Positions 10,604 to 61,255 of a stretch of DNA of 64,000 nt are shown here, in pieces. Each line of letters opens with the position of its first letter. Within the stretch, counting starts at the first letter, position 1. The stretch is from Bolinopsis microptera (Eukaryota; Ctenophora; Tentaculata; Lobata; Bolinopsidae). A model generated the notes under the pieces. That model was not told the origin of the DNA. It made no database searches and saw only the letters and a list, made by a program, of their open reading frames with translations. The stretch is taken from the NCBI RefSeq assembly GCF_026151205.1, contig NC_087077.1, forward strand, positions 5,912,483-5,976,482, given 5' to 3'. The translations under genes were made by a program, and so were the position numbers.

Positions 10604-11500
10604 ATTTTAGTAAAACAAATTTAAATTTTGGTATTTATTAATAACAATCAAAACATATCATATCATAAAAATAAAGCCGCGCGTTGGTTGACTGCCTCAG
10701 TATGGTGAATAATTTAAGCTTGAAGGTGCCCTGCGCATTTACAGAGCATTATGCGGCGATCACATGATCACGAGGACCTGTGAGCGCCAAATTTAATTTA
10801 AACTTTCTTGAAATCGTACATCACTACGAGTTACTCATGCTTTTGAATTATAGGAGTGCGGATTGTCAGGTATTTCATTCATTCATACTTAATCGGTTTA
10901 AAGCTGTATATTTAGAGCTCACTATTGTTTGAACTATGAAAGCAGAACGTAAATAATGGACAATATACCGACGACAATACCAAGGACCCGAGTGCCGCAT
11001 TGACTTTTCCGGATCCGTTTTTACCGAAGGCTTATCCACCAGTTACTCATGCTGCATGTATAGTCTGATAATATTTTGTTTTATCTCTAGCAAGCATTCT
11101 GTAAGTTGGAGTGTCGTATTTATTATAGAAGAGCCAGCCAACCTCCGCATTACAATCTTTTGTATGCCAGGTTCGTTTATAAAATCTAATCATATAATAA
11201 GATTGATCCAATAGTCTAAGATGAACGGTTTATCTTAGCTCATCGTTATTAAAATCCTAATGGATGAATTAATCAAGTAATGTTCCCTTCCAACACAACT
11301 AAACAACAAACAAATGCTTGCTCACCAGTGGTGACGCAATCGTAGGGGCATGCAGTTGGTTCAGATAACTCTCACCCCGACGACAGCGTCGAGAAATTAT
11401 CAAATTATGCATTTGCGCCATACTGGACACATTTTATATTTAATATTTTGTGGTTTGTAGAAATTAGTGTCATCTAAAGTATAGCTTAACTGGCGAGCAA
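10604..11500. other. Intergenic, no gene seen
   Basis: No ORF of note and no strong repeat. It borders the 3' end of the CR1-like LINE. Confidence 0.5.
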
Positions 11501-11830
11501 GCATCGTCCCACTCGGCGGGGACGAAAATACCGAGTCCAATCACAGAAAGTTAACCAAAAGATAAAAACAAGAGCTCGGATATCAACAAAAATCACACGC
11601 TCCAGACGACGGGGGAAGAGAGGATAGGAAGTAAGCTGCTGGGCTCAACAAATTTTGATAATTGTAAACAAATTTGTTCTTGTGCCCTATAATAATTTGG
11701 TATTGAGGTATGACCCTGTACTGTGCGTGATAGTGAAAATGAAAGTGAATGTGAATCTGTAATGCGAACGAAATGAGTTATGGCCAGACGATTCTTCAAT
11801 TTCAAAATAATAAAGTCAAAGGATTCTGTT

Positions 11831-14800
11831 TTAAAATACAAGCTCATTCTTATCAAAGTTTAATTCTGTCCATTCTAATTCTTCGTACCTGGACTGTATC
11901 TTGAGTAGCTCACTTTTCAGTGTTACTTTAACTAAGTTCGTTGACTTAGTAAAGCTTATCAAACTGTCAATTTTTCGACAGTCGTTCCACATTTTTGTTG
12001 ATTGATAAATGAAAGAGGAGGATGGGTTCGGGGTGATGAACTGGTCTGAACGTCTTTGTGATGGTGATCTGTGGAGTAAAGATAGGAGTGAGATTGGAGA
12101 TTCTAATCTGACAATTTTGAACAGTTCTAATAGACATGTGTATTTGTACAGGTTGTGGACGGTAAGAAGGCCGTTCTTGTTAAACAACGGCTTTGTATGC
12201 TCTTTTTCAAAGAATTCTCTTCCTAGGATTTGTTCGTCTATACAACGTGTTCTGGCACATGTTCTAAATTTATCTAGATATGCTTCAAGGTCACCAAATA
12301 GTATTCTGATACATTTTTTCTGAGTGATGAAGATAGGTTGAAGCATATTATTACTCGACCCACCCCATACCGATATTCCAAATCTTAGGTGTGACTCAAA
12401 TAACGTGTGGTACAATTCTTTATGGTGTTTTTTCGGGATAACGTGTCGTATTCTACTGAGTCTTCCGATCTCACACCTAAGTTTCGAGTTGAGGGCTCTT
12501 ATTTGAACATCCCATTTTAGCTTTTCGTCAATAATAACACCTAAAAACTTGGTCTCTTTAACTTGCTTTATTACCGTATTATTTAGAGTTAGTATATATT
12601 CTGATTCGTTATCTGCCTCATTATCAGTAGCTGTACGTGACGGATTGAAGTGAATGTAGCAGCATTTCTTTATATTTATATGTAATAGATTGCATTTCAT
12701 GTACTGGTGTAACAAACGGAGAATTTCGTTTGCTCTTGCATACAGTTTTTTTCTACATTCATCTACTACGAATATGTTTGTGTCATCTGCAAATAGTATG
12801 AACTTGCCCAGATCAGTTGTTCTAAATAAGTCGTTAACATATATTATAAATAGCAAGGGTCCGAGACAAGAGCCTTGGGGAACTCCAAAGAGAACAGGCA
12901 GCTTGTCAGACTCTTCGCCCAGTACAGAGACATATTGATATCTATTAGAGAGATAACTAGCGATGAGTCTATTGGCGTTTCCACGTATTCCATAGTTGTC
13001 TAGTTTATTAAGTAGTTTTTCATGTGAGATCGTGTCAAACGCTTTAGATAGATCAATAAATATTCCAAGTACATGCAGTTTTTTGCTAAGACAGGATTCT
13101 ATGTAATTCACTGAGGAGTTGAGGGCATGGCTTGTGGAGTGATTTTTTCTAAATCCGTACTGGTTCTCGTAAATCATTTTCTGGGACTGAAAGAAGCTAT
13201 ACAGTCTGTTGTAAATAATTTTTTCAAATATCTTACCAAAAACAGCTAAAGTTGATACTGGCCTATAGTTTTCCAGCAATTCCTCATTATCCTTCTTATA
13301 GATCGGACTGATTCTCCCAGTCTTTAAATCATCTGGGAATACTCCATTCCTCATGCATTCACTGTATAATAAAGATAGTATAGGACAGATCACTTTAGAC
13401 GATTCTTTAACTACATGTATTGGGATGTCGGATGACTTCCCATTCTTCAGTTCAGATATAATCATTCTAACCTCGTCAGCTGTACAGTCATTAATGAAAA
13501 TACTGGACGTGTTTGCTCTAGGCAGGTAGTCATAAAAACTAGGAAGATTGTTAATAGTTAGTTCTCCAATTTCATTATATGCCCCGTTTAAATTAGACGC
13601 TAGAGAAACAAAATACTTATTAAATTCATTGGCTATTACTCTACGATTGGTTATCTTCTCATTGTTTATAGTAAACAGTGGTTTTATTTGCCGTTTCTGT
13701 TTGCCCCGTATTTGATTAATCAGTTCCCATGTCTTCTTACTATTACCGTTTGTGTCTGCAAATTTTCCCATGAAATACTTAGTTTGAACATCTTTGCGAT
13801 CTTTTTTAACCATCCTTCTATAATCCTTATAAGTTTTGTATCTAGAACGTTTTTCACAACATTTCAAGCATTGACATGTTCCACCTTTATAATCAGTTTC
13901 ACCGAGTTTACATTTTTTCTTTCTAACTTTAGCCCAATTGTCATAGAGTTGGTGCTGATGCTTGATTTTGGCTATAAGCCCAGGTGTGATCCATGGGTTA
14001 TTTTGTGTAGTTCTTTTGGAAGACTTAGGGGTTGCCAACTTACACGTTTTATCGATACTACTTTTGAAAACATCATGAAATACCGTGAAGTTGTCAATTA
14101 CTTTATTCTCTAATTCATGTTCCAAGTCCTTTACAAAAGAGGTAACATTAGACTTACAGTAGTCGTAATATTGTTTATATTTTAGGTTACTCTTAGTGGA
14201 TCCCATACTCTTTTCAAATATTTGAAAGACTGGTGAGTGGTGGGATATACGATCAGTAAGTGTGCCTGAGGCTATTATACTCTCTACATCGTTAGTTATA
14301 ATATTGTCAATACACGATACTTTACAACCTGGCTTCTCATGAGTTGGCAGAGATATTAGGGGAAAAAATCCTCTACTGAACAGGACTTCCTCATAACGTT
14401 TTACAATCGCATTATCCTTATTATGTAGATCAATGTTGAAATCACCTGCCAGGTAACTGCATTTCGGCAAATTATCGAGAATTGCTGAGAGTTCTAATAA
14501 TGCAACATTTACATCACCACTTGGAGGGCGATACACTACACCAACAGTGACCGGAGTATTCTTGCTGCTTATCGTAACAAATAGAGTTTCTAGGTTTTCA
14601 GATATATGGGACAAATTGCCATTTACTGTAGCACTGAGGGTATCACATACATAAAGAGCGACTCCAGTGCCTTTTCTTTTATCTTGCAAAGTGTTTTGGT
14701 AGAAACTATTGTATCCAGTCAGTTGGTAAAGGTCACTTAATTCGGGGCCTTCATTTGTTTCTGCTAAAGCAATGATCGAAAATTTCATATATCTCTGTAG

Positions 14801-15199
14801 TTCTATTGCCAGAGTATCAAAGTTAGATTTATTACCATCGATATTTTGAAATAATAATGATGAGTACTCGTTCATTTGGTTGCAAAATGTTTTATTAAAT
14901 TCTTTAACACTATATGGGTTACAGTTATTGAGTAATCGGTTGATGTTTACAAGTGTTTCATCAATGTCAGTACTATTATTTTCAGAGTCAGTATCTTCAT
15001 ATATAAACGGATTGTAACGAGTACTTGCTAAGTGTACACAGTTAGGGCAGTAAAAATCTTCATATATTTTGTTTGTACTGGATTTAGTATAGCATTTATG
15101 GTGCATAGCACAGTCACACCTACAACATTCAGCAATGAATTGGCCAATGGAAATGAATTTTGTACAGACAGGGCATACCTCTTTGGTCAATTTATTCAT
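11831..15199 (-). CDS. LINE ORF2: PHD finger, EEP endonuclease, reverse transcriptase
   Basis: This 1122-residue protein nicks target DNA and primes reverse transcription there. An N-terminal PHD-like finger has C9, C12, C25/26, C28, H33/34, C36, C51 and C54. The exonuclease-endonuclease-phosphatase domain follows at about 110-340, with QNIDG, LAETN, GVVYRPPSG, AGDFNIDL and a terminal SHHSPVF histidine. The reverse transcriptase is at about 560-860: NYRPVSTLAVFGKIFEK, motif A FIDLSKAFD, motif B GVPQGSCLGPLLF and motif C FADDTN. The C-terminal tail continues with GVSVWGG-type and FGDLEAYLDKF motifs. The start codon overlaps the ORF1 stop as ATGA (15196-15199), which suggests termination-reinitiation. 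There are no stops or frameshifts. Confidence 0.9.
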   Translation of the reverse strand: MNKLTKEVCPVCTKFISIGQFIAECCRCDCAMHHKCYTKSSTNKIYEDFYCPNCVHLASTRYNPFIYEDTDSENNSTDIDETLVNINRLLNNCNPYSVKEFNKTFCNQMNEYSSLLFQNIDGNKSNFDTLAIELQRYMKFSIIALAETNEGPELSDLYQLTGYNSFYQNTLQDKRKGTGVALYVCDTLSATVNGNLSHISENLETLFVTISSKNTPVTVGVVYRPPSGDVNVALLELSAILDNLPKCSYLAGDFNIDLHNKDNAIVKRYEEVLFSRGFFPLISLPTHEKPGCKVSCIDNIITNDVESIIASGTLTDRISHHSPVFQIFEKSMGSTKSNLKYKQYYDYCKSNVTSFVKDLEHELENKVIDNFTVFHDVFKSSIDKTCKLATPKSSKRTTQNNPWITPGLIAKIKHQHQLYDNWAKVRKKKCKLGETDYKGGTCQCLKCCEKRSRYKTYKDYRRMVKKDRKDVQTKYFMGKFADTNGNSKKTWELINQIRGKQKRQIKPLFTINNEKITNRRVIANEFNKYFVSLASNLNGAYNEIGELTINNLPSFYDYLPRANTSSIFINDCTADEVRMIISELKNGKSSDIPIHVVKESSKVICPILSLLYSECMRNGVFPDDLKTGRISPIYKKDNEELLENYRPVSTLAVFGKIFEKIIYNRLYSFFQSQKMIYENQYGFRKNHSTSHALNSSVNYIESCLSKKLHVLGIFIDLSKAFDTISHEKLLNKLDNYGIRGNANRLIASYLSNRYQYVSVLGEESDKLPVLFGVPQGSCLGPLLFIIYVNDLFRTTDLGKFILFADDTNIFVVDECRKKLYARANEILRLLHQYMKCNLLHINIKKCCYIHFNPSRTATDNEADNESEYILTLNNTVIKQVKETKFLGVIIDEKLKWDVQIRALNSKLRCEIGRLSRIRHVIPKKHHKELYHTLFESHLRFGISVWGGSSNNMLQPIFITQKKCIRILFGDLEAYLDKFRTCARTRCIDEQILGREFFEKEHTKPLFNKNGLLTVHNLYKYTCLLELFKIVRLESPISLLSLLHRSPSQRRSDQFITPNPSSSFIYQSTKMWNDCRKIDSLISFTKSTNLVKVTLKSELLKIQSRYEELEWTELNFDKNELVF

Positions 15200-17382
15200 G
15201 GGTACGGTACGTAACCTTCCCCATGTTGAGTCGCAGCAGCAGCAGGAGAGGAACCACCCATCGTCTGGGAGTATAAGCGATTGTCAACTTTATCCGATCT
15301 CTTCTTCCTTCTATCAGTCCCTCCATTCATCCTTAAAAGTATTGTATTACGTATAAGAACCCCCAGTTTTGCTGTACCACTCCAATTGAGGTGTAAATAG
15401 TCCGGTCTCTGGTTTCGTCCAATGTTCCTAGAGAATTGCTGGCTTAGGAGCCCAGCCTCATCACAGAACATGTCAAAACCAGGTACCAAAGTCACACCAA
15501 AGTTGGAATGGAGCAGCTCCTTAAAAATTAATTCATTATAATGTGCAACTTTACGATTTAGCTCAACGAGTTTGGTTGGCAGCAGCGGACACACAAATAT
15601 ATTTGCTTTGGGGTTAAGCGCTTGGATCATTTCTACTTTCTGAACAAATGGTTTAAAAACATTGTTCTTTATATCAGCGGTATTTTTGATCTCAGGTTTC
15701 CTGATATCATTTATACCACACATCAAGAGAACATTCCTGTATCCACATGAAACTGTAGGATTTATATCCCCCACTACCGGAGCAAAATACTGTTTTCCGG
15801 GGAGCCACTGCCCAAATGATTTTTTGGGGTCCAGCCCGAATTTGAGACCACCAGTATGCGAGTCTCCGATGATACATGTAGAGTTCCTGTTTCTAAAGCT
15901 AACTGAACGAAAAGTTAGGCTGTATCTCACCCCACCAGTTATTGCCCCATCCTCGATACAGTGGCTGTAGAACTCTTGGCTGCGTCGAGTCATGCGATAC
16001 ATGGATCTTGGCACACATGTATGGTCATGAGCCATATGATCCGTCTTCTTATCAAAGAATTTGATGTTGCACTGGCCTCCAATAGAAACAGTGAAAATTT
16101 CGGATTCAGGGTGGATGGTAGTTTCATCATCCGAGTGTTTCGGTAGGGAGCCATCCTCTTTGAAGCGATTGATCAGCAGGCTATTGATCTTCGGTTTTTC
16201 ACCACTACAGAATGCACCATTGATTTTGTCCACTAGATTGGAGAAGCTAGTTGAAGCTAGTTGGCCATTGGATGACTTGGAGCCATTATACTTGTATGGT
16301 TCTCCCAAAGAATACACAGCACGAGCTCCCTCCACAACAAAATCCTCGTCAAGTGATTGGCAGGCAAGGAGGAGAGTTTCCTGCTCTTCTGTGGTAATAA
16401 ACTCTTCTATAGCGCCTACAACTGGTTCTTCTTTTGATTGGAGATGCTCATTAGCTATTAGGTCTGGGCCAGGGGCAAGTGAAGAACTGGTAATTTGGAC
16501 GTTTAAATGGTCAGAAGAAGCCAAAGAATTTCGCTCAAGAGTGTTCAAAGACTGTCTAATGGCTGTTAGCTCCTGATTCGTCTCCAGAGACTGCTTGGTA
16601 TTTAGCTCCTGGAGATTCTTCTCTATTTTTTCCATGAGATCGTTGGTCTTGGAGGAAGATTGAGCACTTACTTGAGGAGTAGAAAAGTCCTGCAGTTGCT
16701 TGTTCAACACTTTAATCTGTTCTGTTAGGCCACTATCAGACTCAGAAACCTTTCCGAGTGAAGAGTCAACTGAAGTTTTCAGCTGCTTTAGATCTCCTTC
16801 CATCACTTCAACCCATGCTGGAGCAGTGCCCTTGTCACTTACCAGTAAGTGCTTGATATGGAGGTCAAGGTTCTGGATGGCAGCAATGCTGTCGTTTAGA
16901 CTGTCAAAGTCAACCTTTGCAAGCTTTTCACCAAAAGCTGTGATGGTATTAAGCTTCTCTGTGGCAATAGCTGTCTCACACTGACTGTTAGATTTTTGAA
17001 GTGTCAGAGTGTTCCTACACACATAACACACATCTTCAGCAGTTTCGAATGTGGGGATTGGTGAAACCAAACAAAAAGGGCAGTGCCAATTGGTCATGCT
17101 GTTGACATTTTTCTGGTTGAGTCCATTCATAGTTAGACAGTCTATGTGCCAATATTGCTTGCACTTTACACAGTCAATCTTCCATGACGATATTGACTTA
17201 CTACATGGACATTTCGTCTTGTCCCTGTGTGAACTGTCAAACTTTGGGGGTGTTACATCACTGTCTACAACAATAGTTTCACAAGATACATCCTTTCCCT
17301 TCGCCTCTGGTCCTGGAGTGTTGTTCTTGATTCGGGACTTTGCCTTTTTGTCCGCAGGAGTGGTGGTACACCCAGAATGACT
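15196..17382 (-). CDS. LINE ORF1: PHD, coiled coil, AlkB-like dioxygenase and SGNH esterase
   Basis: The first methionine is at 17130 (644 codons), but the frame is open to 17382 and encodes the front of a PHD finger there: CPCSKS, CVKCKQYWHIDC, then NWHCPFC after the methionine. Numbering from that methionine, a low-complexity coiled-coil region spans about 50-205. An AlkB-like 2OG-Fe(II) oxygenase spans about 236-412: NSLLINRFKEDGSLP, iron ligands H332xD334 in KHSDDE, EIFTVSIGGQCNIKF, likely third ligand H390 in FYSHCIEDG, and 2OG-binding arginines in VRYSLTFR (R402, R408). An SGNH esterase spans about 417-600: IGDSHTGG (S424), CGINDIR (N474), DYLHLN (D577, H580). All expected catalytic residues are present. 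ORF1 is thought to act as the RNA-binding/accessory protein; the substrates of both enzymes are unknown. The missing start fits 5' truncation of this copy. Confidence 0.85.
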   Translation of the reverse strand, partial: SHSGCTTTPADKKAKSRIKNNTPGPEAKGKDVSCETIVVDSDVTPPKFDSSHRDKTKCPCSKSISSWKIDCVKCKQYWHIDCLTMNGLNQKNVNSMTNWHCPFCLVSPIPTFETAEDVCYVCRNTLTLQKSNSQCETAIATEKLNTITAFGEKLAKVDFDSLNDSIAAIQNLDLHIKHLLVSDKGTAPAWVEVMEGDLKQLKTSVDSSLGKVSESDSGLTEQIKVLNKQLQDFSTPQVSAQSSSKTNDLMEKIEKNLQELNTKQSLETNQELTAIRQSLNTLERNSLASSDHLNVQITSSSLAPGPDLIANEHLQSKEEPVVGAIEEFITTEEQETLLLACQSLDEDFVVEGARAVYSLGEPYKYNGSKSSNGQLASTSFSNLVDKINGAFCSGEKPKINSLLINRFKEDGSLPKHSDDETTIHPESEIFTVSIGGQCNIKFFDKKTDHMAHDHTCVPRSMYRMTRRSQEFYSHCIEDGAITGGVRYSLTFRSVSFRNRNSTCIIGDSHTGGLKFGLDPKKSFGQWLPGKQYFAPVVGDINPTVSCGYRNVLLMCGINDIRKPEIKNTADIKNNVFKPFVQKVEMIQALNPKANIFVCPLLPTKLVELNRKVAHYNELIFKELLHSNFGVTLVPGFDMFCDEAGLLSQQFSRNIGRNQRPDYLHLNWSGTAKLGVLIRNTILLRMNGGTDRRKKRSDKVDNRLYSQTMGGSSPAAAATQHGEGYVPYP

Positions 17383-17520
17383 TCAAGAATGGCCCCGTGT
17401 ACATTGAAAACAATATACTTTATATAATATAACCTAGTCAATAAAGTTGACATACTGATATCTGGATATTATCCGGTTGGAAGAGACAAGGACAAGTGAA
17501 ACAAGGAAGTTAGGAGTAAG

Positions 17521-17548
17521 GGCAAATTTTCGGCGTCAACGCCATCTT
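17521..17548 (-). ncRNA. Hammerhead-like core in Penelope 3' tail (minus copy)
   Basis: Read on the minus strand: CTGAAGA, then stem GGCG-ttga-CGCC, then GAAA. This matches the CUGANGA / stem II / GAAA part of the hammerhead core known from Penelope-like elements. The cleavage-site strand and stem III were not identified clearly, so this is a candidate only. Confidence 0.35.
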
Positions 17549-17747
17549 CAGGCTAAAATTGTTATAAATGTTAGTATATAATAAATGCTTCTATACTAGT
17601 TAAAATGCTAAATTAAAATTACACACACTGAATACAGGTTACATCAAATGGTATTGTACATTACATTGAAAATAGTGATGTACACACGTTTTACACTCTG
17701 TCCAAGTACATAATATCTACTGAACAGCAGGGTCGTGTGCTATTTGT

Positions 17748-18314
17748 TTAAATTTGTCTTTGAATATGTTGTAAAAGAAATCCCTTAAGCTTCTCGCACT
17801 CTTCTTTGTTATTGATACTAGGTTTAAATAAATTAATGTAGTAAGCTTCTGTCACTTTACGTTTAATGGTGCTATATAAGTTAATTTCTAAAATATCGAA
17901 GGAAATATCTGGTTCTATGTTATCGTGAAACTCTGAATAATGAGCAGCCAACGCATTATCAGGATAGGTTAAAGGCCTGTTGACTGCTCTTCGATGCTCT
18001 GAAAATCTATCGTGTGCTGTTCTACTCGTTTCCCCTATATATAGCTCTTGACATAATTTACACGTAACTTTGTATATGACACATTTTGGTTTGCAGTCGT
18101 GATTTGTTGTGATGAGTGGACATATGATACAGTTTGGTATGGTGCAGTGTGGTTTGTCGTGTGGTCGTGATGAACATAAGATCTCTGAGAGTTTCTTACC
18201 TGGTGTGAATATGAATTTGACCGGTAAGTTGTGTGAGAGGGCAAATTGAGTGACTTCTTTGGAAAATGGCTCGTTGATCACGACCACACGACAAACCACA
18301 CTGCACCATACCAA
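17748..18314 (-). pseudogene. Penelope GIY-YIG endonuclease domain, truncated pol
   Basis: A 188-codon frame holds the C-terminal end of a Penelope-like polymerase. It contains PVKFIFTPGKKLSEIL, a zinc-like C..CIICPLI segment, and the GIY-YIG core (VIYKVTCKLCQELYIGETSR, then DRFSEHRRAV). NKEECEKLKG and a TAA follow. In intact elements this domain nicks target DNA next to the reverse transcriptase. Here the RT is missing. The first dozen residues read through the inversion junction, so the apparent start is not native. Confidence 0.8.
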
Positions 18315-18700
18315 ACTGTATCATATGTCCACTCATCACAACAAATCACGACTGCAAACCAAAATGTGTCATATACAAAGTTACGTGTAAATTATGTCAA
18401 GAGCTATATATAGGGGAAACGAGTAGAACAGCACACGATAGATTTTCAGAGCATCGAAGAGCAGTCAACAGGCCTTTAACCTATCCTGATAATGCGTTGG
18501 CTGCTCATTATTCAGAGTTTCACGATAACATAGAACCAGATATTTCCTTCGATATTTTAGAAATTAACTTATATAGCACCATTAAACGTAAAGTGACAGA
18601 AGCTTACTACATTAATTTATTTAAACCTAGTATCAATAACAAAGAAGAGTGCGAGAAGCTTAAGGGATTTCTTTTACAACATATTCAAAGACAAATTTAA
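18277..18700 (+). pseudogene. Second copy of the Penelope GIY-YIG C-terminus
   Basis: The plus-strand arm repeats the last 140 or so codons of the minus-strand copy: ELYIGETSRTAHDRFSEH, DISFDILEINLYSTIK, KLKGFLLQHIQRQI and stop. It has no start of its own and is a 5'-truncated duplicate. Confidence 0.8.
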
Positions 18701-18896
18701 ACAAATAGCACACGACCCTGCTGTTCAGTAGATATTATGTACTTGGACAGAGTGTAAAACGTGTGTACATCACCATTTTCAATGTAATGTACAATACCAT
18801 TTGATGTAACCTGTATTCAGTGTGTGTAATTTTAATTTAGCATTTTAACTAGTATAGAAGCATTTATTATATACTAACATTTATAACAATTTTAGC

Positions 18897-18920
18897 CTGA
18901 AGATGGCGTTGACGCCGAAA
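18897..18920 (+). ncRNA. Hammerhead-like core in Penelope 3' tail (plus copy)
   Basis: The same CTGAAGA-stem-GAAA arrangement in the plus-strand arm, identical to the minus copy. As there, a complete three-stem fold was not demonstrated. Confidence 0.35.
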
Positions 18921-19090
18921 ATTTGCCCTTACTCCTAACTTCCTTGTTTCACTTGTCCTTGTCTCTTCCAACCGGATAATATCCAGATATCAGTATTTCA
19001 ATCATGAGACTAATAAACAGCGAACTACTCCGTTATTAAATAAAGTTGACATATGATACAATTGCAATAATTAAAGGAGGTGACATAATA

Positions 19091-20835: not shown

Positions 20836-21111
20836 TTCTGTAATACAAGCTGATAAACCAAAATGAACAACTGAGGTAGGTAGGTAGCCCTGGTGGGTGT
20901 GTAAACTTTACGGTCTGCTCTCTCCAAGATTAGCCTGCTTCTCCATTTTACTGTGAAGCCTAATTTCTAGTTTTTTCAATAAATTAGAATAGAATCTTGT
21001 CTTCTATTCAGCTCACTCTTCTGAAACCTCTTCCTCTACATTTTCAACCTCATCATCAACTTCATCATCTTCATCATCAACATCATCACCCATGGCTTCA
21101 TCGTTGGTGGT

Positions 21112-23321
21112 GTGTGCAAGATTTATCCAATTATATTTCAGCTTCATAAGCCTTCTGACATCGACAAATGTGAGAAAGTCATACGCTTTAGAAAGATCAG
21201 AGACATAGATCAGGAACAATTTAAAGGTGATTTATCTGTTGCTCTATCTGAGTTGGTTTTTGAAGAAAAGAGCTTATCTGATGTTGTGACTCAATTTAAC
21301 AATGGGTGTCAACATATACTAAATGTACATGCTCCAGAATATCCCAAAACCATCAAAGACATTCCCACTGCTCCCTGGTTTGATGGCGAATACAAATTTG
21401 CAAGAGCCGAAAGAAGAAAGGCTGAGAAAGCCTGGAAAAAGTCAAGTCTCGAAATTGATCATGATATCTTTGTTCATTTGCGAGAGCACTGTTCAGAGCT
21501 GACTCTCAAAAAGAAAAAACTGTTCTTCTCTAATACTTTCCAGAAATACAAACACTCACAAAAGAGCCTTTACAAATTTGTAGACACTTTCCTGGATAAA
21601 GAAAAGGACCTCACTTTACCATCTTCAGAAAATCTTCAGGAAACTGTAAATGCCTTTAACCAGTATTTTACTGAAAAAATTGAGAAAATCCGAACATCAT
21701 TTCCCAACACTACTGTGACTAATAGTTCTCCAATCTTCAATGGCCAGGCATTATCTGAATTTAGAAAAGCTACTATTTTTGAAGTCAGAGAATTGATCAA
21801 AGAATCTGGCATCAAAACCTCATCGATTGATCCACTACCTAAAGAACTCTTGTCAGAGCACCTTGAGCTAATCCTCCCTACCCTTTGTGATATTATCAAC
21901 GTTTCTCTTTCAACCGGAAGTATGGAGGGAATCAAGTTAGCACATCTCACTCCCCTGATCAAAGGAGATTCCCTAGACACTGAGAACTTAAAGAATTATA
22001 GACCCATCTCTAATCTTACATTCATCGGTAAACTCATTGAGCGCTTCGTATTAAAATGCCTCAATGAACATCTAGCCAAGAATAATCTCAACATTGACCA
22101 CCAGTCTGGTTACAAAAAGCATCACAGCACAGAAACACTCCTCATTACCATAGTCAATGACCTCCTCATAGCCACTAATAAAAACACAGCAACAGTTGTA
22201 ATTTGCTTTTAGATCTGAGTACTGCATTCGACACAGTTGACCATATCAAATTGATCAATATATTGAAGTGTGAGATTGGGATTGCGGGAACAGCCTTGAA
22301 ATGGTTCACCAGTTTCATCCGTGGTCGTTGTCAAAAAGTCAAGATAGGTGACCTAGAATCTGAAGAAATTGTAATAAAGTTTGGTGTCCCACAGGGCTCT
22401 GTCCTTGGCCCTGTGTTGTTCAATATCTACATCCGCTCAATTTACTCTTCTGTAAAATCGAAGCAATTTCTGATCCATGGCTATGCTGATGATCACCAGA
22501 TCTACAAGTCATTTTCATCTGCCACAGAATATCAAGTCCTCAGCGAAGACCTGCCCTCCTGTTTTAGAGAAATCGAGACCTGGATGACGAACCACTTCCT
22601 TCTTCTGAATCCAACTAAAACTGAAATTATAGTTTTTGGTTCAAAACGTTTATTGTCAGAATTAGAAATTGGTGGTGTCTTCCTTAAATCTTCTGTCTGT
22701 ATAAGACTTGTTAACGTTACTAAAAACCTTGGCTTTACATTGGATTCCTCTCTGACTCTTAATCCTCAAATAAAGAAGCTTAAAGCTGCAAACTGCCACA
22801 AGATGCGGAATATTGCAAAGATGAAACCATTCCTCTCTGAAGATCAAATGCAAATCATCGTACAATCTCTTGTTATTAGTTCCCTTGACTACTGCAATGC
22901 ACTTTACTATGGTACTAATCATTCCGTTTTGAAACAGCTACAATCTCTGCAAAACAGAGCATGTCGCTTAGTTAAAGGTCTAAAGAGGAGAGAAGAAGTT
23001 GAGCCCTACATAAAAGAACTTCATTGGCTCAAGGTACAAGAACGTATTGAATTTAAAATACTCCTGCTAACTTTCAAACTGCTCCATGGACTAGCACCTT
23101 CATACCTGTCAAACCTTGTCAAGTACATGTACAATCCCAGTGGTGGCAGAGATGTGTCTCTTCATTGCCCTATAAACAGTCCACCAAGAGCCTTCTCTTC
23201 ATCTGCTCCAAGATTATGGAACAACCTTCCTCAAGATATCAGGAAATGTGTAAACATCAATGACTTTAAGGGAAAACTAAAAGCTCTGAATCTGTTTAGA
23301 AAGTCCTTTGATATGTACTGA
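21112..23321 (+). pseudogene. L2/CR1-like LINE pol, 5' truncated, with one frameshift
   Basis: The first frame (21112-22212) starts in the segment after the endonuclease (HKPSDIDKCEKVIRFRKI) and runs into the reverse transcriptase: IDPLPKELL, LKNYRPISNLTFIGKLIERF, HHSTETLL. It ends after TATVVICF. The frame resumes at 22203 with LLDLSTAFDTVDH (motif A), GVPQGSVLGPVLF (motif B), YADDHQIY (motif C), and a C-terminal block ending SSAPRLWNNLPQDIRKC. A single extra T near 22203 in GTAATTTGC explains the shift. The endonuclease is missing. The motif style (YRPISNL..IGKLIER, STETLL, LLDLS.AFDTVDH) is that of L2-like elements. Confidence 0.85.
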
Positions 23322-25188: not shown

Positions 25189-28100
25189 CTAGTCCCTCTC
25201 AAAACACATACGCAGACTTTGAGAACTAGGCCCTCTCTTAGTCAAAACATCAGCAGGCATCGTCCTTGAGGGCATAAAGTTAACAGTTATTTCACCCTTC
25301 TCAACCATTTCCCTTAGTGATGCCATGGTAACTATCAGTCTTTTTTCAATGGGGTCCTTTGTCTTCTGTACAAGCTCTAGAAGTCCTTTATTGTAAATAA
25401 AACAGTCTATGGTCACATTTAAAGAATCTCCCAGTATTTGTTGTAGTGTTTGCTGAATAAAAATGGTGTGATCAGCCGCTTTCAGGAGTGCAAGGCTTTC
25501 AGCGGCTAAAGTACTGTAACAGACTCTGTCCAACTTTACAGATTTCCAACAGACAGGGTTTTTGACTCTACCATCTTTATCCGAAATAAGTATCAGATAC
25601 CCACACTGACTACCATTGTTACTAAGATTTCCAAACGATGCATCACTGTATGTAAGTAGTCTTACTCCATTCTTTATGTTAGGCAGTTCTCTGAAGGTCA
25701 GTGGGGCATCTTCATCAGTTTTAAGCTTTTTGACTATCTTGTTGTGAAGCATTATGTCTGAGACGTTGGGATCTTTCAGATTATTGCTCAACTGACAAGC
25801 ATCAAACGAAATATCTGGTCTGGTTTGGACAGATAACCAGATAAGTTGTCCAACACCTGATCTGTACTGTACATACTCTTCGTGAGTCAGAGCATGTGTT
25901 TTCTGGCTTCTTCTGTTACTTGATAGTCCTATGGTCTTTAAAGCACTGATATAATCTGACTGTCCAACAGTGATTTCATATGAGATTGGATCTTGTTCCA
26001 CCTCAAGTCCAAGATATGTGAATCGCGATGCTTCCTGTGACTTAATCTCAAATCCATGCAGCACATCTTTGTGAATATTAGACTCAAAACCTTTGGTCCC
26101 TGCATAGATGAAGTCATCTACATGTACAGTCATTATTCCTGCAAGATCTTCTTTGTCAACTCTTGAAAAGAACAGAGCATCATCATATAAACATTTCCTT
26201 AAACCAGCTTGTTCACTGTGGTCTTTTACATTTCTGTACCACATCTTTGCAGCATCTGACAGTCCATAAACACATTTGTTCAGCTTCCACAGTATTCCTG
26301 GTTTATAGCATTCCTTTGGAGGGGTAAGATAAACTAGTCGCTCAATTGGTTTACCTTGTAGAAATGCTGAGGTTATATCAAGAGAATGAATAGGCCACTT
26401 CATTGATGCTGCTACTGTGAATAGAAGTCTTAGAGATTCTTTTCGACAAGTAGGACTGACTCTTTCGGTACTATCAAGAGGAATTTCCTCAAAACCTCGA
26501 GCTACCAAACGGGCCTTTTTCTTATGACCATTGTCATTTGTGACCCACCTTGTCGAAATGGGGACAAACTGATCATCTACTTCGTGAGCCTCAACCTCTT
26601 CATACACATTGTTTTGCTTCCATTTTGCGATTTCGTCAGTCTTCTGTGACTTATAGGGGTCAGTGTTTAACACTTCGATACTGACCTTCTTCTTCTCATA
26701 CTTTGACTTAGCTTTGCAGAACTTCTGCTCCTTTGTAGACATTGATTCCTCTAAATTAGTTTCGTTGCTTTGTGGTATATTATCTGTGCTTACAGTATTA
26801 TTATCATCCTCTTCAGCAGGAGCAATATCGAAAGCGTTCAACAGAACATCATTTTTCAGCATTTGAGTTGCATTGTAAAATTCTTCAACAGTGGGATTAG
26901 GCTCATCTGGTGGATCGGTCCCACTTACTTCGGAAACATCTTTTGAGTACAGTTCATTTACATTGACAACATGAATCCGGTGGCATCGAACAATATACCC
27001 ACCATGTCTTACAACTACAACTTTCTTGTCCACACCTATAACTGTTCCTGGTCCTCGCCATCGCTTATCATCATTTCTTTTGTAGTATACCATATCACCC
27101 GACTGTATCTCAGTGTACACTTCTCTAGTTTTTGATCTAATGGCTCGTCTGATCATCTCACTAGCTTCGCTTTCCATCATTCTTTTTCGAGCACTGTAGA
27201 TGGCAGAGATGTTCTTGGCAACAGTTTCACTTGGACTCTCATCTTCAACAATCGTTGGACTAGCATAGGGATCATCAATAGAAGTGAGAGATGGATTTTT
27301 GCCAAAGATTAACTGATATGGCGAGAAACCATTTACATTTGCCAAAGTGTTCTTGGCATGACAGGCCCATGCTAAAGCAACTTCAACTGAGCATTTAGTA
27401 TCTTCCATGATCTTTATCATACTGTTAGACAAAAGGGCATGGTGCCGTTCTACAAGGGCATTGCTCCAAGGTGCTTCAGCTCCAGTAGTGATGATATGAA
27501 CGTTGAATTTCTCACAGAGGTCAACAAAACTTTTGTTAACATATTCCCCTCCATTGTCACTCATGAACTTCTTCGGTGGTCCAAAAGTGTTGATCCAGTG
27601 TGTAAAGACACTTTCCACAATGGTTTCCTTGTCTTTTGACCTGATAACTTTTGCAGCAGAGAATCTGGTTTTATGGTCAATCATGTGCTGGATGTAAATG
27701 TTTTTATTCTTGTCGTACACCTTAATATCCATGGCAACGGTATCATTGAAGTCTTTGGCTAAAGGCATACAGACTACTGGACGATTATTCGGTCGCTTGT
27801 ATCTCTTGCACACATCACAGTTAGACGATACTGTGTCAATCTCTCGAGCAATTTCCTTGGTAAGCTGTCCTGCTGTTCTTAAGAGTGACTTTAACTTTTC
27901 AGGTGGGGGATGGGCGAATTGCTTATGTAGCTTAATCGCTATCTTTCTTTTGTCAGTACTTTCCATGGTCAGGTTTACAATTTCCTCTCCTGATTTACAT
28001 AAGCAGACTTGTTGATGGATAGTATTCTTGCTCAGAGGGATGCTACAGTGTCCTGATTCATTGAAGATGATTTTCTGCTTTACACCAAAAGCCTTCACTG

Positions 28101-29478
28101 TGTCATCTCCAAAGTCCAATACCATTCTAGCATCTTTCATTGACTGTTTGCTAATCAGTAATGGAATCTGATCATCAACAACTTGTGCCACAATGTTCAC
28201 CTGTTTGTCACATACAACGGCTGGGAATGTGCAGCATGTCCTTGACTTTGATGGTGCATTATCTCCAAATTTAAACGATACATGTTTCTCTTCATAGCAC
28301 ACCTTAATGAAATCTTCTGGAGACAGCGACTGAAGATAGACTTTCAACCATTCCTTTCCACAAACCGTTTTGTTGCATCCACTGTCAAGAACTGCTAACC
28401 CAAAGTTGTCACTGGTAAATTGGTCCATAACATTTGAGTTCTCTTCTTGGGCAGGAGCATTCATAAAGAGATTTACATTCTCACTCGTTACCTGATTTCC
28501 ACTTTTGTTTATTCTGCGGCGTTCTGGACAATCTCTAGAAAAGTGGTAAATCGACTTGCAAACATTACAAGTAAAATGCCGCCCATATTTGTCTGTTGGG
28601 TTCATTTTTCTGTCACTTCTGACACCCGCAGCTACCTGATGTTGACTTTCCTGCTGTTGATTCTGTTGTCGGTATCCTCTGGCTCCTCTACCATTTCCTC
28701 TTCTAAAGCCATATCCCCGGTATCCTCTTCCCGAATAGCCACTTCTTCCTTGGCTGTAATATGCATGCTGCTCCATTTCCTGAGCATTCAGTACTTCATT
28801 TTCATTTTCGTATTCATCATACATATTAAACTGATTTTCAATACAGGAGTTACCAGTATAAAATGTAGAGTCTTCTTTAACTACACCAATCATTCTCTGG
28901 TGTGAACTTTCTGGATCTTTCATAGTTGTGATCTTCTTTATCGTTTCTTTCATGTTAGTGTATGTTAAGTCGCCACACATAGTAATGGCAACAGAATACT
29001 TGTAATCACTAACATTACAACTTCTAAGTAATTCATACGCTAGAACAGGTTGTGGAAGCTTAATATCATGCTCTTCCATTCGTTTTACAACTTTTTCGAA
29101 TGACGAAATAAACTCCTTGACATCTTGGCTTCCTTCCCGACTTAACTTTCTGAACATGTCATAAGTCTTGAACTTTTCCTTAGCCAAATCTTCAAGATAA
29201 ATTCCATCAAGGACCTCCAGGAGGCAGTCTAATCCCGATGTCTTTACTTCAGCACCTTCTACTGTGTCTGTTCTGCCATTTTGTAATACTTCAAGTGGAA
29301 CTTCCACTGCCTCAGACTTAGCCTTCTGAGGTAACATAAAAACAATACATCCTGCTTGACGCTTTTCTTCGATCAATGTGGTTGCCGACCACAATTTCAC
29401 TTCTTTCTTGAACAAAAGATAAGAATCTCCTAACTTAGGGATAGGTGGTCCACTACTGTTCACTTGATTTTCCGACAT
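25189..29478 (-). CDS. Copia Gag-Pol polyprotein, 1429 residues
   Basis: One frame encodes capsid, protease, integrase, reverse transcriptase and RNase H in copia order. Gag is 1-240, followed by an RG/Q-rich linker. The zinc knuckle CNVCKSIYHFSRDC is at 304-317 (CX2CX4HX4C). The protease has DSG at 365-367. Integrase has its HHCC finger (H518, H523, C554, C557) and D584, D641, E677. Reverse transcriptase has RWVTNDNGHKKKARLVARGF, LDITSAFLQG, and HVDDF in place of YVDD. RNase H has LTYSDASFGN and STLAAESLAL. There is no stop between gag and pol. Start MSENQVNSSG lies 13 bases after the 5' LTR. The HVDD variant and short LTR resemble GalEa-like animal copia elements as I recall them, which is tentative. 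Confidence 0.92.
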   Translation of the reverse strand: MSENQVNSSGPPIPKLGDSYLLFKKEVKLWSATTLIEEKRQAGCIVFMLPQKAKSEAVEVPLEVLQNGRTDTVEGAEVKTSGLDCLLEVLDGIYLEDLAKEKFKTYDMFRKLSREGSQDVKEFISSFEKVVKRMEEHDIKLPQPVLAYELLRSCNVSDYKYSVAITMCGDLTYTNMKETIKKITTMKDPESSHQRMIGVVKEDSTFYTGNSCIENQFNMYDEYENENEVLNAQEMEQHAYYSQGRSGYSGRGYRGYGFRRGNGRGARGYRQQNQQQESQHQVAAGVRSDRKMNPTDKYGRHFTCNVCKSIYHFSRDCPERRRINKSGNQVTSENVNLFMNAPAQEENSNVMDQFTSDNFGLAVLDSGCNKTVCGKEWLKVYLQSLSPEDFIKVCYEEKHVSFKFGDNAPSKSRTCCTFPAVVCDKQVNIVAQVVDDQIPLLISKQSMKDARMVLDFGDDTVKAFGVKQKIIFNESGHCSIPLSKNTIHQQVCLCKSGEEIVNLTMESTDKRKIAIKLHKQFAHPPPEKLKSLLRTAGQLTKEIAREIDTVSSNCDVCKRYKRPNNRPVVCMPLAKDFNDTVAMDIKVYDKNKNIYIQHMIDHKTRFSAAKVIRSKDKETIVESVFTHWINTFGPPKKFMSDNGGEYVNKSFVDLCEKFNVHIITTGAEAPWSNALVERHHALLSNSMIKIMEDTKCSVEVALAWACHAKNTLANVNGFSPYQLIFGKNPSLTSIDDPYASPTIVEDESPSETVAKNISAIYSARKRMMESEASEMIRRAIRSKTREVYTEIQSGDMVYYKRNDDKRWRGPGTVIGVDKKVVVVRHGGYIVRCHRIHVVNVNELYSKDVSEVSGTDPPDEPNPTVEEFYNATQMLKNDVLLNAFDIAPAEEDDNNTVSTDNIPQSNETNLEESMSTKEQKFCKAKSKYEKKKVSIEVLNTDPYKSQKTDEIAKWKQNNVYEEVEAHEVDDQFVPISTRWVTNDNGHKKKARLVARGFEEIPLDSTERVSPTCRKESLRLLFTVAASMKWPIHSLDITSAFLQGKPIERLVYLTPPKECYKPGILWKLNKCVYGLSDAAKMWYRNVKDHSEQAGLRKCLYDDALFFSRVDKEDLAGIMTVHVDDFIYAGTKGFESNIHKDVLHGFEIKSQEASRFTYLGLEVEQDPISYEITVGQSDYISALKTIGLSSNRRSQKTHALTHEEYVQYRSGVGQLIWLSVQTRPDISFDACQLSNNLKDPNVSDIMLHNKIVKKLKTDEDAPLTFRELPNIKNGVRLLTYSDASFGNLSNNGSQCGYLILISDKDGRVKNPVCWKSVKLDRVCYSTLAAESLALLKAADHTIFIQQTLQQILGDSLNVTIDCFIYNKGLLELVQKTKDPIEKRLIVTMASLREMVEKGEITVNFMPSRTMPADVLTKRGPSSQSLRMCFERD

Positions 29479-29491
29479 TTCCTGCTATCAC

Positions 29492-30581: not shown

Positions 30582-32048
30582 TCATTTTGGATGTGTGGAC
30601 CCTAGGGTAGACTTAATGTCAAAATTTAGATTAGAGCATTCGAAATCTTTGTTTGTCCAATCAAGATCAGCATGGTTATGCTGGTTGACGAGCAGTGATT
30701 GCTTCATCCTAGACTTCAGGCAGGCCACACTTAGACAGTAGTCACGTATACCAAGCTTAGGCACAATTACGTTCCAAATACGAGTCGTTCTGCTATTGAA
30801 GTTGTCAGGGGGGTCTGCTTGGCTTAGTATAAGGGTGGGTTTCCTACTTGAGCAGGTGAAATTTTCATGGAGGGAAATCGGAGCACGGAATTTCATGATT
30901 TTATAGAGCTCAAGGAAACAATGGTAAGTGTACAGGTTTTGGACGGCAAGTATTCCTTGTTCCTTGAACAAAGGTTTCGTGTGCTCTTTCAAAAAAAATT
31001 TTTTGTTCAGATTTTGGTTGCCAAACGGTCGAGCACGAGCACAGGTCTTAAATTTATCTAGGTATGCCTCCCTGTCGCCAAACAGCACCCTGAGACAATA
31101 TTTTTGTGCTTTGAATACAGAACTTATACGAGTTTTGGCTGCCCCACCCCAAACCGTGATACAATAGGAGAGGTGTGATTCAAATAGAGTGTAATACAAC
31201 TGGCGGTGTAAGAAATCTGGGAGGGAGCAGCGTAGGCGGCAGAGAGTTGATGTTGCATGGCTGAGAGAACGCCTAAGTGATTTTATATGTTCTTCCCAGG
31301 TTAGCTTTTCATCGATGACGACTCCCAGAAACTTAGCAGATGCAACTTGTTTTATTGGAAAGTTATCAATGGTTAGAGTATATTCAGAATTATTGTCAGT
31401 CTGGGAGGACGATGCTGGTTTAAAGTGAATGAAACAGCATTTAGACAAGTTGACATGGAGTTTGTTTGCTCGCATGTAGGAATATAAACTAGCTAAAAGA
31501 GAATTACCACGCATATATGCCTCCTTTTTAGATTTCCCAGTCACAAATATATTGGTGTCATCAGCGAAGGTGACAAATGATCCCAAACTGGAGCTGTTGG
31601 CGATATCATTAATATATAGGAGAAATAAGAGAGGTCCAAGAATCGAACCCTGAGGGACTCCAAACTGTATTTTCAAGGCGTCAGATTTCTCACCAACAAC
31701 TTCAGTATATTGTGATCTATTTGTTAAGTAACTTTTTATAAGATCATTTGCCACCCCACGTATCCCATAGCCCTGTAATTTGACAAGTAATGTACCATGA
31801 TCTATTGTATCAAAAGCTTTGCTAAGGTCTATGAATATGCCTAAGACATGATGCTTAAGTTTTAGAGATTCAGTTATAAGGTTTACTGAGTGATTAACTG
31901 CATGTGAAGTAGAGTGTGACTGCCTGAAGCCAAATTGTGTTTTAGATATTATACCCTGTGAGCTAGCAAACGAATATATTCTTGAGTAAATGATCTTTTC
32001 AAAGATACCCATTGGGTATTGCTGAATCTGACCCACAAAATACCACAA
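30582..32048 (-). pseudogene. Second CR1-like LINE, RT and C-terminus only
   Basis: A 488-codon open frame is related to ORF2 of the LINE at 11.8-15.2 kb but clearly a different subfamily. From FEKIIYSRIYSFASSQG it carries FGFRQSHSTSHAVN, motif A FIDLSKAFDTIDH, motif B GVPQGSILGPLLF, motif C FADDTNIFV, and the shared tail SHLSYCITVWGG and FGDREAYLDKFKTCARAR. The first dozen residues (MWYFVGQIQQYP) are not LINE sequence, so the copy is 5' truncated inside RT motif 1. PHD, endonuclease and ORF1 are missing. Confidence 0.85.
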
Positions 32049-33892: not shown

Positions 33893-36800
33893 TGGATTCA
33901 TCTTTGGAGTCAGATGAACTCAGTGGTGACCTGAGTGCTTCTCGTCACATAGAGATCCCATCATCATCAAGAAGCAGGTATGTCTTCTTTGGGTTTCTAG
34001 TATTATATTAAGTAAAATACAATTTAAGTAAAATACAATTTTTGTTTTCCACAGAAGAATCAATACATATTGAATTATAAATATCCGATAATTCATTATT
34101 ATTATATATCTGTGAATAAACTAAACTCAGATTAATCGCACGCGCAGGGTATTATTTGATACTTTCATTCATAAATCAAAATCTGTATAAACAGTAATCT
34201 CAGATTATCTTGGTTGTTGTCTTACGTAATACAACATTTTCTTTTTTACCCTCTAGAATAATAACAATTTGACAATATTTTAATTTAAATTCCACTCAAT
34301 TTCACTCTGATAGTGATAAAATTTAGGAATGGATCGGGTATCCGGCTGCTAAAATAGTAGTTGGGAAGGCCAAGGTGCTTGGCCGGATATCATAACAATG
34401 ATTTCGGCTCATAATGGGGATGGGGGGGGTTTGAGTCTTGATTGCGGGTGATTACAGCGGGGGGAGGGGGGTAAAAATTGCTAAAATGTTGATTATGTAA
34501 TATGTGAACGACCCCTTACAGACAGAGCTGTTGCTGCAATTTTAACAATTTAAAAACTTGTTTAGCTTCCTAACAGTTTTGTCGACATAATACCAATTAA
34601 TTATCCAGTACTTTCAGTAAAGATATATATGCTGTAGGATGCATATTTACCAATAATAATGGGAAAAAATAAAGTGTTCTCTAATTCCAATTTTAGTCTC
34701 CTTATAATGCACCGTTATTATCTATCTATCTATATTCTATATCTGCTAGTTCAACCATACATGTTTCAGTCACACTACTCACCAATTTCCTCTACAGTAC
34801 GAGAGACGCTAAAAGACAGTTACGAATCGTAGAGTCAACAGAGACGATCAGAAGTACTCTATCACCCGAGCTATGTAGCAGCTTGTCATTTGGGCCTTTG
34901 TCCTCCACTCACGATCAGACATGCTTCCTACAAGAGGTTTTCCCGTTCCTGTCCGTGCAGAATGATGACGAATTTAACTCGGAGAAGCCTCTTAACTTCA
35001 ATAGCCTGGACCTACGCTTGAAGCAGTCCATCTCTATTCCATCCTCAGTTGATCAGTACAAAGATAACGTAGTTGACATGAAAAAAAGGGCTGAAGTGGA
35101 CGGTGTCTTGGGGCCTGCTGTCGTTAGAATGGACCCTGGCAGGTCAATGGGCTACTTTGTGTACAGTCAAGATAAACTGGATATTGAAGGGAAGTCTAAT
35201 TTCAGCACTTGTTGTGCCAACACTGCGCTCACCAAGGGAAGGTGGATGTATGAAGTCCTCCTGTTAAGCCGCGGAATCATGCAGTTAGGTTGGACCACGC
35301 CTAGCAGCTTTGCTAACTTCACTACACAGGAGGGTGTGGGAGATACTGAGAACTCTTTTGCATTCGACGGAAAGCGAATCAAGAAGTGGAACAAAGGCGC
35401 GCACGATTACGGAGAAGAGTGGAACGTGGGGGATGTTATTGGGTGCGCTATTGATCTGGACGTGGGTGAAGTGTCATACTATCGGAATGGGGTGTCGCTT
35501 GGTGTTGCTTTCTCCAATGTCAAAACAGGCACCAACTATGCCTACTTCCCTGCAGTGTCTCTATCCTTCGAGGAGCACATCAGGATCAACTTTGGAGATC
35601 GACCATTTAACTACAAAATCGATGAATTTGAACCTATACAGGCATATCCTGCTGAAGAGTTGTACTGTGTTGATCAGTACCTCGTTTCAATAAACAATAT
35701 CCTGAAAATTCACCTCAACTCTGCCAAACAGAGCAACTTATATTTCAATCAAATAAGCATGGCACACATATTTGATAAGATCGGCCATCTTCTTGGAAAC
35801 CCTTACATAATCCACTCTCTCATAGTGCCTTTCATCACTGACAAATGTCAGCTTCCTGAAAAGAGGGCAAAGTTCTTTGAAGCTCTAACAACGTTTTTGG
35901 ATGACTGGGAGTTGAATCATTTGGTGGACGAGCTGTTTCACACTGTTGCTCTCATCTCTTACTGCTGCATTTACTCCAACCAACCTACCCAGAAAATACA
36001 ACTGCTCCAGTTGGCGATTGACATGTTGGCAGACCCCAAGTTTAGCGACATAATAGTCAACTCGCCGCTATTTGGGCACAGGTTCATGCTCTTCTTACAC
36101 TTCAAAGGTCCAGATGGACAACTCCTCAGCTCTGTAGTTCCTCATGCTTGGTGGCCAGGTAATGAGGAACACAAGGAATCATTTGATAACGCCACAAAGA
36201 ACATCTATGGAGCTATAAAACAAGTAGAAGCTATGTTCGCCAAGATGTTGGACATTCTGATTTCAGGGCGACATCTCAAGAAGTTTTTAGCTTACTTAAA
36301 TGAATTCATCCAACAGATATTGGCAGTTGCAGTCTCTTTGTCAAACCTCCGGAACATACCTATCCATCAGCAAGCCTTCATGTCCAATCTTTTTCTCGCT
36401 ATTTCAAGATCCCTCGCCGAAAACACAACACACTTGTCTGCCTCGAAAGTATTCATCAAACCAGCTTATTATACAACGAAGAACATGCAGTCAGACTTCT
36501 CAGACCTTCCAAGAGTAGGAGGCAACCACGGACATTTGAGAAAAGAGCACAAAGAGTACCTGTCTAACCTGGAACAGGGAGATGTAGATGACATGTCTCA
36601 CATTCTCAACAATACTGCTCTTCTATTCCACCTTGGAGTTTACCGGAGACTTCTTTCTGCTGACCTCTTCTGTAGAGAAATGACAGACCACGCTGCACAT
36701 CTGAAAGCAGTACAGGAGAAAATCAAGAATTGTCCTGTTGATGAGAAGGAAGTATTGGAGGATCTTAAACAGTGTGAAGCTGTGTTAGAGAAGGACACGA

Positions 36801-61106: not shown

Positions 61107-61137
61107 CATTTTACCTATTGTAGAACCATTAAGAATT

Positions 61138-61255
61138 TAACTTAATTCCTAACTACCTGTTTCATCTTCCTTGTCTCTTTCAACCGGCCGGATATTATCC
61201 AACTGTCAGTATTTCATCATGAGACTAACAAACAGCGAGCTACTCCAACATTTGG
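61138..61255 (+). mobile_element. Penelope 3'-tail fragment
   Basis: Matches the outer tail of the pair at 17454-19038: CTTCCTTGTCTC, CAACCGG...ATATTATCCA, then CATGAGACTAACAAACAGCG and AGCTACTCC. No coding part remains. Confidence 0.7.

Follow-up and report, generated by a model that had tools for sequence, protein, structure and literature searches.

What might an AlkB-type oxygenase be doing inside the first open reading frame (ORF1) of a long interspersed nuclear element (LINE)? The question is raised by a stretch of 64,000 nucleotides from the ctenophore Bolinopsis microptera (contig NC_087077.1, positions 5,912,483 to 5,976,482 of the forward strand; assembly GCF_026151205.1), hereafter called the window. 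An earlier note had placed at 15196-17382 an ORF1 that encodes, in this order, a PHD finger, a coiled coil, an AlkB-like oxygenase and an SGNH esterase. The coordinates and the order were borne out, with the frame on the minus strand; the AlkB domain scores over its Pfam cut-off, and the PHD finger and the hydrolase score under theirs with their key residues kept. The sequence supports the view that ORF1 is a LINE protein with a predicted AlkB-type oxygenase between coiled coil and SGNH hydrolase, and this AlkB domain is a selected module. The relevant features are as follows.

10698..17358, minus strand: LINE copy of family A, 99.76% identical to sister copy L062 over 6661 bp
11831..15199, minus strand: ORF2, 1122 amino acids (aa), with a PHD-like N-terminus, an APE endonuclease and a reverse transcriptase (FADD)
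15038..15175, minus strand: PHD-like C4HC3 finger at the start of ORF2, a pattern met by 0 of 2000 shuffles
15196..17382, minus strand: stop-to-stop open frame of ORF1, 728 codons, including flank at 17359-17382
17068..17217, minus strand: PHD finger of ORF1, C4HC3 (C58, C60, C71, C74, H79, C82, C101, C104)
16447..16977, minus strand: coiled-coil region by heptad score, acidic, the least conserved part of ORF1
15892..16446, minus strand: predicted AlkB-type 2-oxoglutarate (2OG)- and Fe(II)-dependent dioxygenase domain, from PF13532 and profile comparisons
16129..16137, minus strand: HxD iron ligands H416 and D418 (motif HSDDE), invariant
15961..15963, minus strand: distal iron ligand H474, invariant
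15907..15927, minus strand: RxxxxxR with R486 and R492 (2OG-binding arginines), invariant
15268..15891, minus strand: predicted SGNH/GDSL hydrolase domain (S508, N558, D661, H664), from PF13472 and invariant residues

The AlkB domain and its setting in the LINE

The assignment to AlkB, which the earlier note had made from the sequence alone, was upheld by profile searches. PF13532 matches residues 347-492 of the window ORF1 with an E-value of 3.6e-12 and a score of 47.3 bits (cut-off 31.2), and it is likewise over its cut-off in five of five sister ORF1s from the groups A', B, C, D and E described below (43.2-59.9 bits). A second match to this region comes from the PHROGs collection, with a family annotated for alkylated DNA repair (1.6e-8). 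With hhalign, the region was aligned to a profile of seven other AlkBs at a probability of 98.7 and an E-value of 2.5e-16; the members of this profile had themselves been found as matches of the LINE domain, five of them being annotated as AlkB and two coming from unannotated records. When a profile of nine LINE AlkB domains alone was compared with solved structures, the matches were ALKBH8 (2.1e-7), ALKBH2 (8e-7), ALKBH3 (7e-5) and ALKBH6 (2.4e-4), and neither ALKBH5 nor FTO nor Escherichia coli AlkB was among the solved matches at E up to 1. The domain is not closest to ALKBH5, as an ALKBH5-type demethylase of N6-methyladenosine (m6A) would be. Two alignments that include the window copy, one of eight and one of six sequences, show the predicted iron and 2OG ligands H416, D418, H474, R486 and R492 without any substitution. 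Residues are numbered here from 17382; they correspond to H332, D334, H390, R402 and R408 of the earlier note, which counted from the ATG at 17130.

The other domains of ORF1 were recognised mainly by their residues. The C4HC3 pattern for PHD fingers, written for this analysis, is found in both ORF1 and ORF2 and is met by 0 of 2000 shuffles of each; PF00628 (PHD) gave an E-value of 0.075 in the window ORF1, under its cut-off. Among the 20 aligned ORF1s described below the PHD residues are invariant (20/20; C58 and C60 in 19/19, one copy being truncated there). The heptad signal of residues 111-312 was equalled by 3 of 500 shuffles, and 15 of 187 coil columns are invariant across six group representatives. 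For the hydrolase, PF13472 (GDSL) reached an E-value of 1.9e-4 and 22.4 bits, under its cut-off of 32.9, and the SGNH profile gave weak GDSL matches to solved structures (best E 0.017). The catalytic residues of the esterase, to which the earlier note had pointed, were found as S508, N558, D661 and H664 and are invariant in 20/20 ORF1s, while G556 is replaced by Ala in both A' rows. In the sister ORF1s of groups B, D and E (three of five) both profiles score better, at 4.5e-5 to 1.1e-3 for PHD and 4.8e-6 to 6e-6 for GDSL, still under the cut-offs; the A' sister gave GDSL at 0.002 with PHD not among its matches, and in the group C sister neither was matched at E up to 0.1. ORF1 has the coiled coil and the SGNH domain with catalytic residues that characterise a Type IV esterase ORF1, with the GDSL profile under its cut-off wherever it matched.

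ORF2 follows ORF1 through an ATGA overlap. PF00078 matches it over the cut-off (1.4e-37), the endonuclease profile PF03372 under it (5.7e-4), and the motifs GDFN, SHHSP and FADD are present. Its closest solved relative is LINE-1 ORF2p (3.7e-19), matched over residues 141-856. An ORF2 with APE endonuclease and reverse transcriptase, together with dispersed copies of which some are 5'-truncated, makes this an APE-type LINE. The description CR1-like given in the earlier note is supported in part, by this type of element and by the PHD-like N-terminus of its ORF2. A 5'-truncated LINE fragment on the minus strand at 30582-32048 has a reverse transcriptase about 51% identical to that of the AlkB-bearing LINE.

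That ORF1 is one uninterrupted frame is correct for its 728 stop-free codons, but the copy is incomplete. Two full-length sister copies, whose mutual similarity starts at position 824 of their loci, have ORF1s that open with MGDNN. Compared with these full-length copies, the window ORF1 lacks the start codon and the first 22 codons, because this copy of the LINE starts at 17358, a point 183 bp into the full-length element; the first in-frame ATG is at 17130, within the PHD finger. This loss is an ordinary LINE 5' truncation. The 3' end lies at or below 10698, a limit set by the sister sequence, which ends there. A chance frame was rejected, the longest stop-free runs in 40 simulated first-order Markov sequences of 64 kb each having a mean of 148 and a maximum of 184 codons versus the 728 observed.

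The stretch directly upstream of the LINE copy, 17447-19001, holds two Penelope-like (GIY-YIG) fragments arranged as a palindrome with arms 93.8% identical; their GIY-YIG match is 21.0 bits, slightly under the cut-off, and there is a third partial match at 61134-61216. A possible small hairpin (TCGTCCC ... GGGACGA) is located in the 3' untranslated region of the LINE, at 11500-11528 on the minus strand.

Copies, families and selection

Copies were sought in the window's own genome (264,652,675 bp in 232 contigs), the best candidates being scored, so that all copy counts are lower bounds. ORF1 is more than a single copy, since all 61 of the 61 scored places match it (best 61 of 1099 candidates), and the listed query ranges cover residues 416-492, which hold the AlkB ligands, in 58 of these 61. 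Full-length or near-full-length ORF1s fall into six groups by identity to the window: A, the window family (95-100%), A' (85-87%), B (44%), C (40%), and D and E (39-40%); shorter fragments extend down to 93% for A and to 77% for A'. The ORF2s of the other groups are 60-75% identical to family A. With ORF2 as query, at least 13 full-length matches at 99-100%, including the window copy, were found among the best 41 of 7469 candidates, and 12 of the 13 are without internal stop. This is as expected of a young family, and the LINE is probably such a family, still mobile.

An alignment was made of 20 selected ORF1s, full-length or nearly so, with shorter fragments and duplicates left out. H416, D418, E420, H474, R486 and R492 are invariant in all 20 rows, which come from the six groups, and the residue set expected by the earlier note, HxD, a distal H and two arginines, is therefore present throughout. 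Of the 183 AlkB columns, 52 show no variation among six group representatives; that all five named catalytic residues would land in these 52 by chance has a probability of 0.0016. Between diverged copies, the ratio of nonsynonymous to synonymous substitution rates (dN/dS) of the AlkB domain is 0.18 (A versus A'), 0.08 (within B), and 0.14 and 0.16 (two D/E pairs). Approximate Fisher tests, taking 24% of the sites as synonymous, gave p from 9e-8 to 1e-17 for purifying selection in three pairs. No AlkB dN/dS is given for A versus B, C or E, or among B, C and E, because their synonymous sites are saturated. Three further, recent pairs have no AlkB change or changes of one kind only. A one-off capture of the domain was ruled out by the 61 of 61 scored places, the six groups and the purifying selection.

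Identity along the element is uneven. Measured in 150-base windows, the identity of A to A' is 99-100% over the PHD finger and most of the coil, 96% at the coil end and 89-94% over AlkB, and it is 66-71% in the rest of ORF1, starting at the AlkB/SGNH junction. Between D and E it is 93-99% in the N-terminal part, only 73-82% in a block made of half the coil, AlkB and the hydrolase start, 92-99% after this block, and 87-97% over the final third of the compared element. Mosaic loci are L048 (1601-2800, against L053) and L062 (near 2474, against L063), the latter being the A/A' breakpoint near the AlkB/SGNH border. From these patterns, blocks of ORF1 seem to have been exchanged between families.

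Other AlkB frames, origin and known systems

The LINE is one of several carriers of AlkB in this genome. PF13532 has at least 151 matches, every one listed being over the cut-off (best 150 of 587 candidates); the number is a lower bound, as the window copy is missing from the matches listed. HxD, H and both arginines are intact in all five other AlkB cores retrieved from mobile-element-like frames (551, 593, 611, 646 and 3388 aa). For the 551-aa class, a frame whose AlkB lies at G000:C2:17782013-17782393 is accompanied by an APE-like endonuclease in L072 (G000:C2:17783193-17784192). This 1000-base stretch starts 0.8 kb downstream of that AlkB, and its endonuclease matches (4.1e-5 and 4.8e-5) are under the cut-offs; because the endonuclease follows AlkB there, this class very probably belongs to a second, distant LINE. 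By comparing the listed AlkB and GDSL matches by eye, AlkB followed by GDSL within one frame was seen in a 676-aa class (C2:1134867-1135823 and C2:5247117-5248076) and in two shorter frames. The reversed order, GDSL/SGNH before AlkB, was seen in open frames of 719 to 3321 aa; examples from the profile listings, of 813 to 3321 aa, are C3:14441692-14443593, C9:15866686-15868581, C12:2468326-2469981 and C10:13247561-13249477. None of these reversed-order frames is among the scored integrase matches (best 150 of 394 candidates), and co-location of AlkB with endonuclease or integrase, again judged by eye, gave no useful overlap among the matches listed. Many frames of 426 to 523 aa have a GDSL/SGNH match with no AlkB among the matches listed and are perhaps esterase-only elements.

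In a midpoint-rooted tree of 25 sequences and 140 columns, six LINE AlkB domains of the A-E type form one clade (91), adjoining three bacterial AlkBs (73), and the 551-, 593-, 611- and 646-aa classes form a separate clade (70). Recent capture of a host AlkB gene was tried as an origin and rejected, as the host-like frames of 234 and 505 aa, two of the three selected (the third has 296 aa), group with ALKBH2/3-type bacterial sequences and the LINE A-E domains stand apart (bootstrap 91). An old capture from the host could still have taken place, since the deeper branches of the tree are weakly supported. No relatives were found in a viral contig collection by scans with P0001, with the AlkB part or with the LINE AlkB profile; a scan of the same collection with a mixed alignment gave six loci with AlkB at 28-30% identity among 98 pattern matches. 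Two scans of prokaryote genomes found no relatives, and tblastn returned one weak match in phages and 15 weak records in plasmids; the annotation is AlkB in 10 of the plasmid records and 2OG-Fe(II) oxygenase in one.

It is possible, if doubtful, that in this lineage AlkB is a recurrently acquired retroelement module, taken into LINE ORF1s from at least two distant AlkB clades, spread by block exchange and selected by base methylation. The two clades would be that of families A-E and that of the 551/593/611/646-aa classes, to which the reversed SGNH-AlkB frames may be added. If true, recurrent acquisition would point to strong selection through such methylation, whether placed by the host as a mark on retroelement RNA or arising as damage that halts reverse transcription, with demethylases encoded by the elements as the response.

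Some plant RNA virus replicases carry an AlkB domain with a proposed role in RNA repair; like the LINE, they belong to a replicator with an RNA genome and its own AlkB, in a different kind of element. AlkB in a retrotransposon has a precedent in an orchid Gypsy element (PMC9289625). These Phalaenopsis Ty3/Gypsy elements, as described there, share with the present LINE a retrotransposon-encoded AlkB dioxygenase with the iron and 2OG residues. They differ in being plant elements of the long terminal repeat type, with AlkB in a separate ORF2, of ALKBH5 type and with m6A activity shown, whereas here AlkB lies within the ORF1 of a LINE and is nearest to ALKBH8/2/3.

Zebrafish ZfL2-1 and the Type IV esterase ORF1s of CR1, L2 and RTEX are described (PMC3905857) as having a coiled coil followed by a C-terminal SGNH domain with conserved S, N, D and H, and an ORF2 with APE and reverse transcriptase, all as found here; unlike them, the present ORF1 carries an AlkB domain that separates the coil from the hydrolase, with a PHD finger ahead of all three. 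Of the two transposon-specific positions named in that description, H191 (four residues before the oxyanion Asn) and S228, the former is Met in 9/20 and Leu in 11/20 of our ORF1s, with the register set by the GxN motif in our own alignment. The ZfL2-1 esterase was not matched by the LINE SGNH profile at E up to 1, and the terms AlkB, oxygenase and demethyl are absent from the main text of the ZfL2-1 esterase paper. An N-terminal PHD in ORF1, as here, is reported for CR1 and L2 lineages (Metcalfe and Casane 2014, PMC4120745), and in L2 subgroup 5 of that survey a PHD is given as probable at the beginning of ORF2, also as here. The main text of this 2014 survey of Jockey-superfamily ORF1s contains neither 'AlkB' nor 'oxygenase'. 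No LINE with AlkB was found among the titles and abstract openings listed by full-text searches of an open-licence PubMed Central library, those about ctenophores included; Repbase, Dfam, general protein databases and the subscription literature lie outside these searches.

Elsewhere in the window, the following were observed.

21025-23321, plus strand: second kind of LINE reverse transcriptase, in two overlapping frames
25189-29484, minus strand: uninterrupted 1431-codon Copia-like polyprotein frame, assigned by motif reading
34697-38251, plus strand: RNF123-like E3 ligase (SPRY, TPR_RNF123, RING), uninterrupted 1184-codon frame
39088-39660: GEMIN8 match, after the RNF123-like frame

Possible role of the AlkB domain

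The role that we favour, tentatively and with a probability of about 0.45, is that the AlkB domain strips methyl or alkyl groups from the element RNA before reverse transcription, with the SGNH domain as a lipid or membrane link of the ribonucleoprotein (RNP). The ORF1 protein would multimerise via its coiled coil on its own transcript, and its AlkB domain would take groups such as 1-methyladenine (m1A) and 3-methylcytosine (m3C) off the Watson-Crick face of the bases. Since such groups stop reverse transcriptases, AlkB could act in cis as a template cleaner, allowing the reverse transcriptase to traverse a template of about 7 kb. Both m1A and m3C stop reverse transcription, and AlkB treatment relieves the block in RNA sequencing protocols. 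ALKBH2 and ALKBH3 have m1A/m3C-type groups as substrates, and for this reason template cleaning is ranked first. The SGNH domain may link the RNP to lipid or membrane as proposed for ZfL2-1 (PMC3905857). The AlkB fold could in addition supply an RNA contact besides its chemistry, since the esterase ORF1 proteins in RepBase had no structural RNA-binding domain (PMC3905857). The AlkB protein of the orchid Gypsy element is reported to bind RNA and to demethylate it in vitro (PMC9289625).

Several points weigh against template cleaning. The AlkB region is acidic (isoelectric point 5.65), which disfavours strong RNA binding by the domain alone, and very recent pairs of copies have an AlkB dN/dS of 0.28-0.81 where both kinds of change occur, with at most 13 changes each. 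The best solved match is ALKBH8, which hydroxylates a tRNA base and is no m1A/m3C demethylase; ALKBH2 acts on DNA; and E. coli AlkB is not among the matches at E up to 1. Homology therefore leaves reaction and substrate unsettled, and because of the ALKBH8 match we have rated the demethylation mechanism lower and a module that is no demethylase higher. Such a module would be an RNA-binding or scaffold fold, or would oxidise another target, either a protein or, in the manner of ALKBH8, a tRNA-like base. Another fold could stand in for the structural RNA-binding domain that RepBase esterase ORF1 proteins lack (PMC3905857), and a catalytically dead orchid AlkB keeps its RNA binding (PMC9289625). 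The invariance of HxD...H and both arginines in 20/20 ORF1s would be needless for a mere scaffold, and we regard this alternative as rather improbable, while noting that oxidation of another substrate is compatible with the conservation.

A different use of demethylation would be epitranscriptomic evasion, in which removal of m6A or another regulatory mark by the domain would keep host readers from recognising the element RNA and spare it decay or translational repression. The orchid Gypsy AlkB, which is ALKBH5-like and takes m6A off RNA in vitro, was proposed by its authors to act against host surveillance (PMC9289625). The LINE-only profile, in contrast, matches ALKBH8/2/3/6, with ALKBH5 absent from its matches at E up to 1, and human L1 retrotransposition is promoted by m6A and suppressed by ALKBH5 (PMC7873242), so that an m6A eraser would be of no obvious help to a LINE. 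On both grounds we place evasion below template cleaning and hold it to be unlikely. The domain could also work on DNA at target-primed reverse transcription, repairing or demethylating the target DNA or the first cDNA strand; the PHD fingers of ORF1 and ORF2 might direct it to chromatin. ALKBH2 is among the closest solved relatives, and PHD-type fingers stand at the N-termini of both ORF1 and ORF2; since LINE ORF1 proteins mainly package RNA, a DNA role is rather improbable as well. That AlkB is a mere passenger, a single captured fragment or artefact without function, finds nothing in its favour besides the weak PHD and GDSL scores of the window copy; it is refuted by the conservation tests (61/61 scored places, six groups, purifying selection), and its likelihood is close to nil.

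A long LINE RNA must be copied, and methylated or alkylated bases can halt reverse transcription or flag the RNA for the host. With a LINE that carries its own conserved AlkB-type enzyme, repair or editing by a retroelement of its own template becomes directly testable. An RNA- or DNA-modifying function would then join the roles proposed for ORF1 proteins. The arrangement is found in a ctenophore genome, and ctenophores may be the sister group of all other animals.

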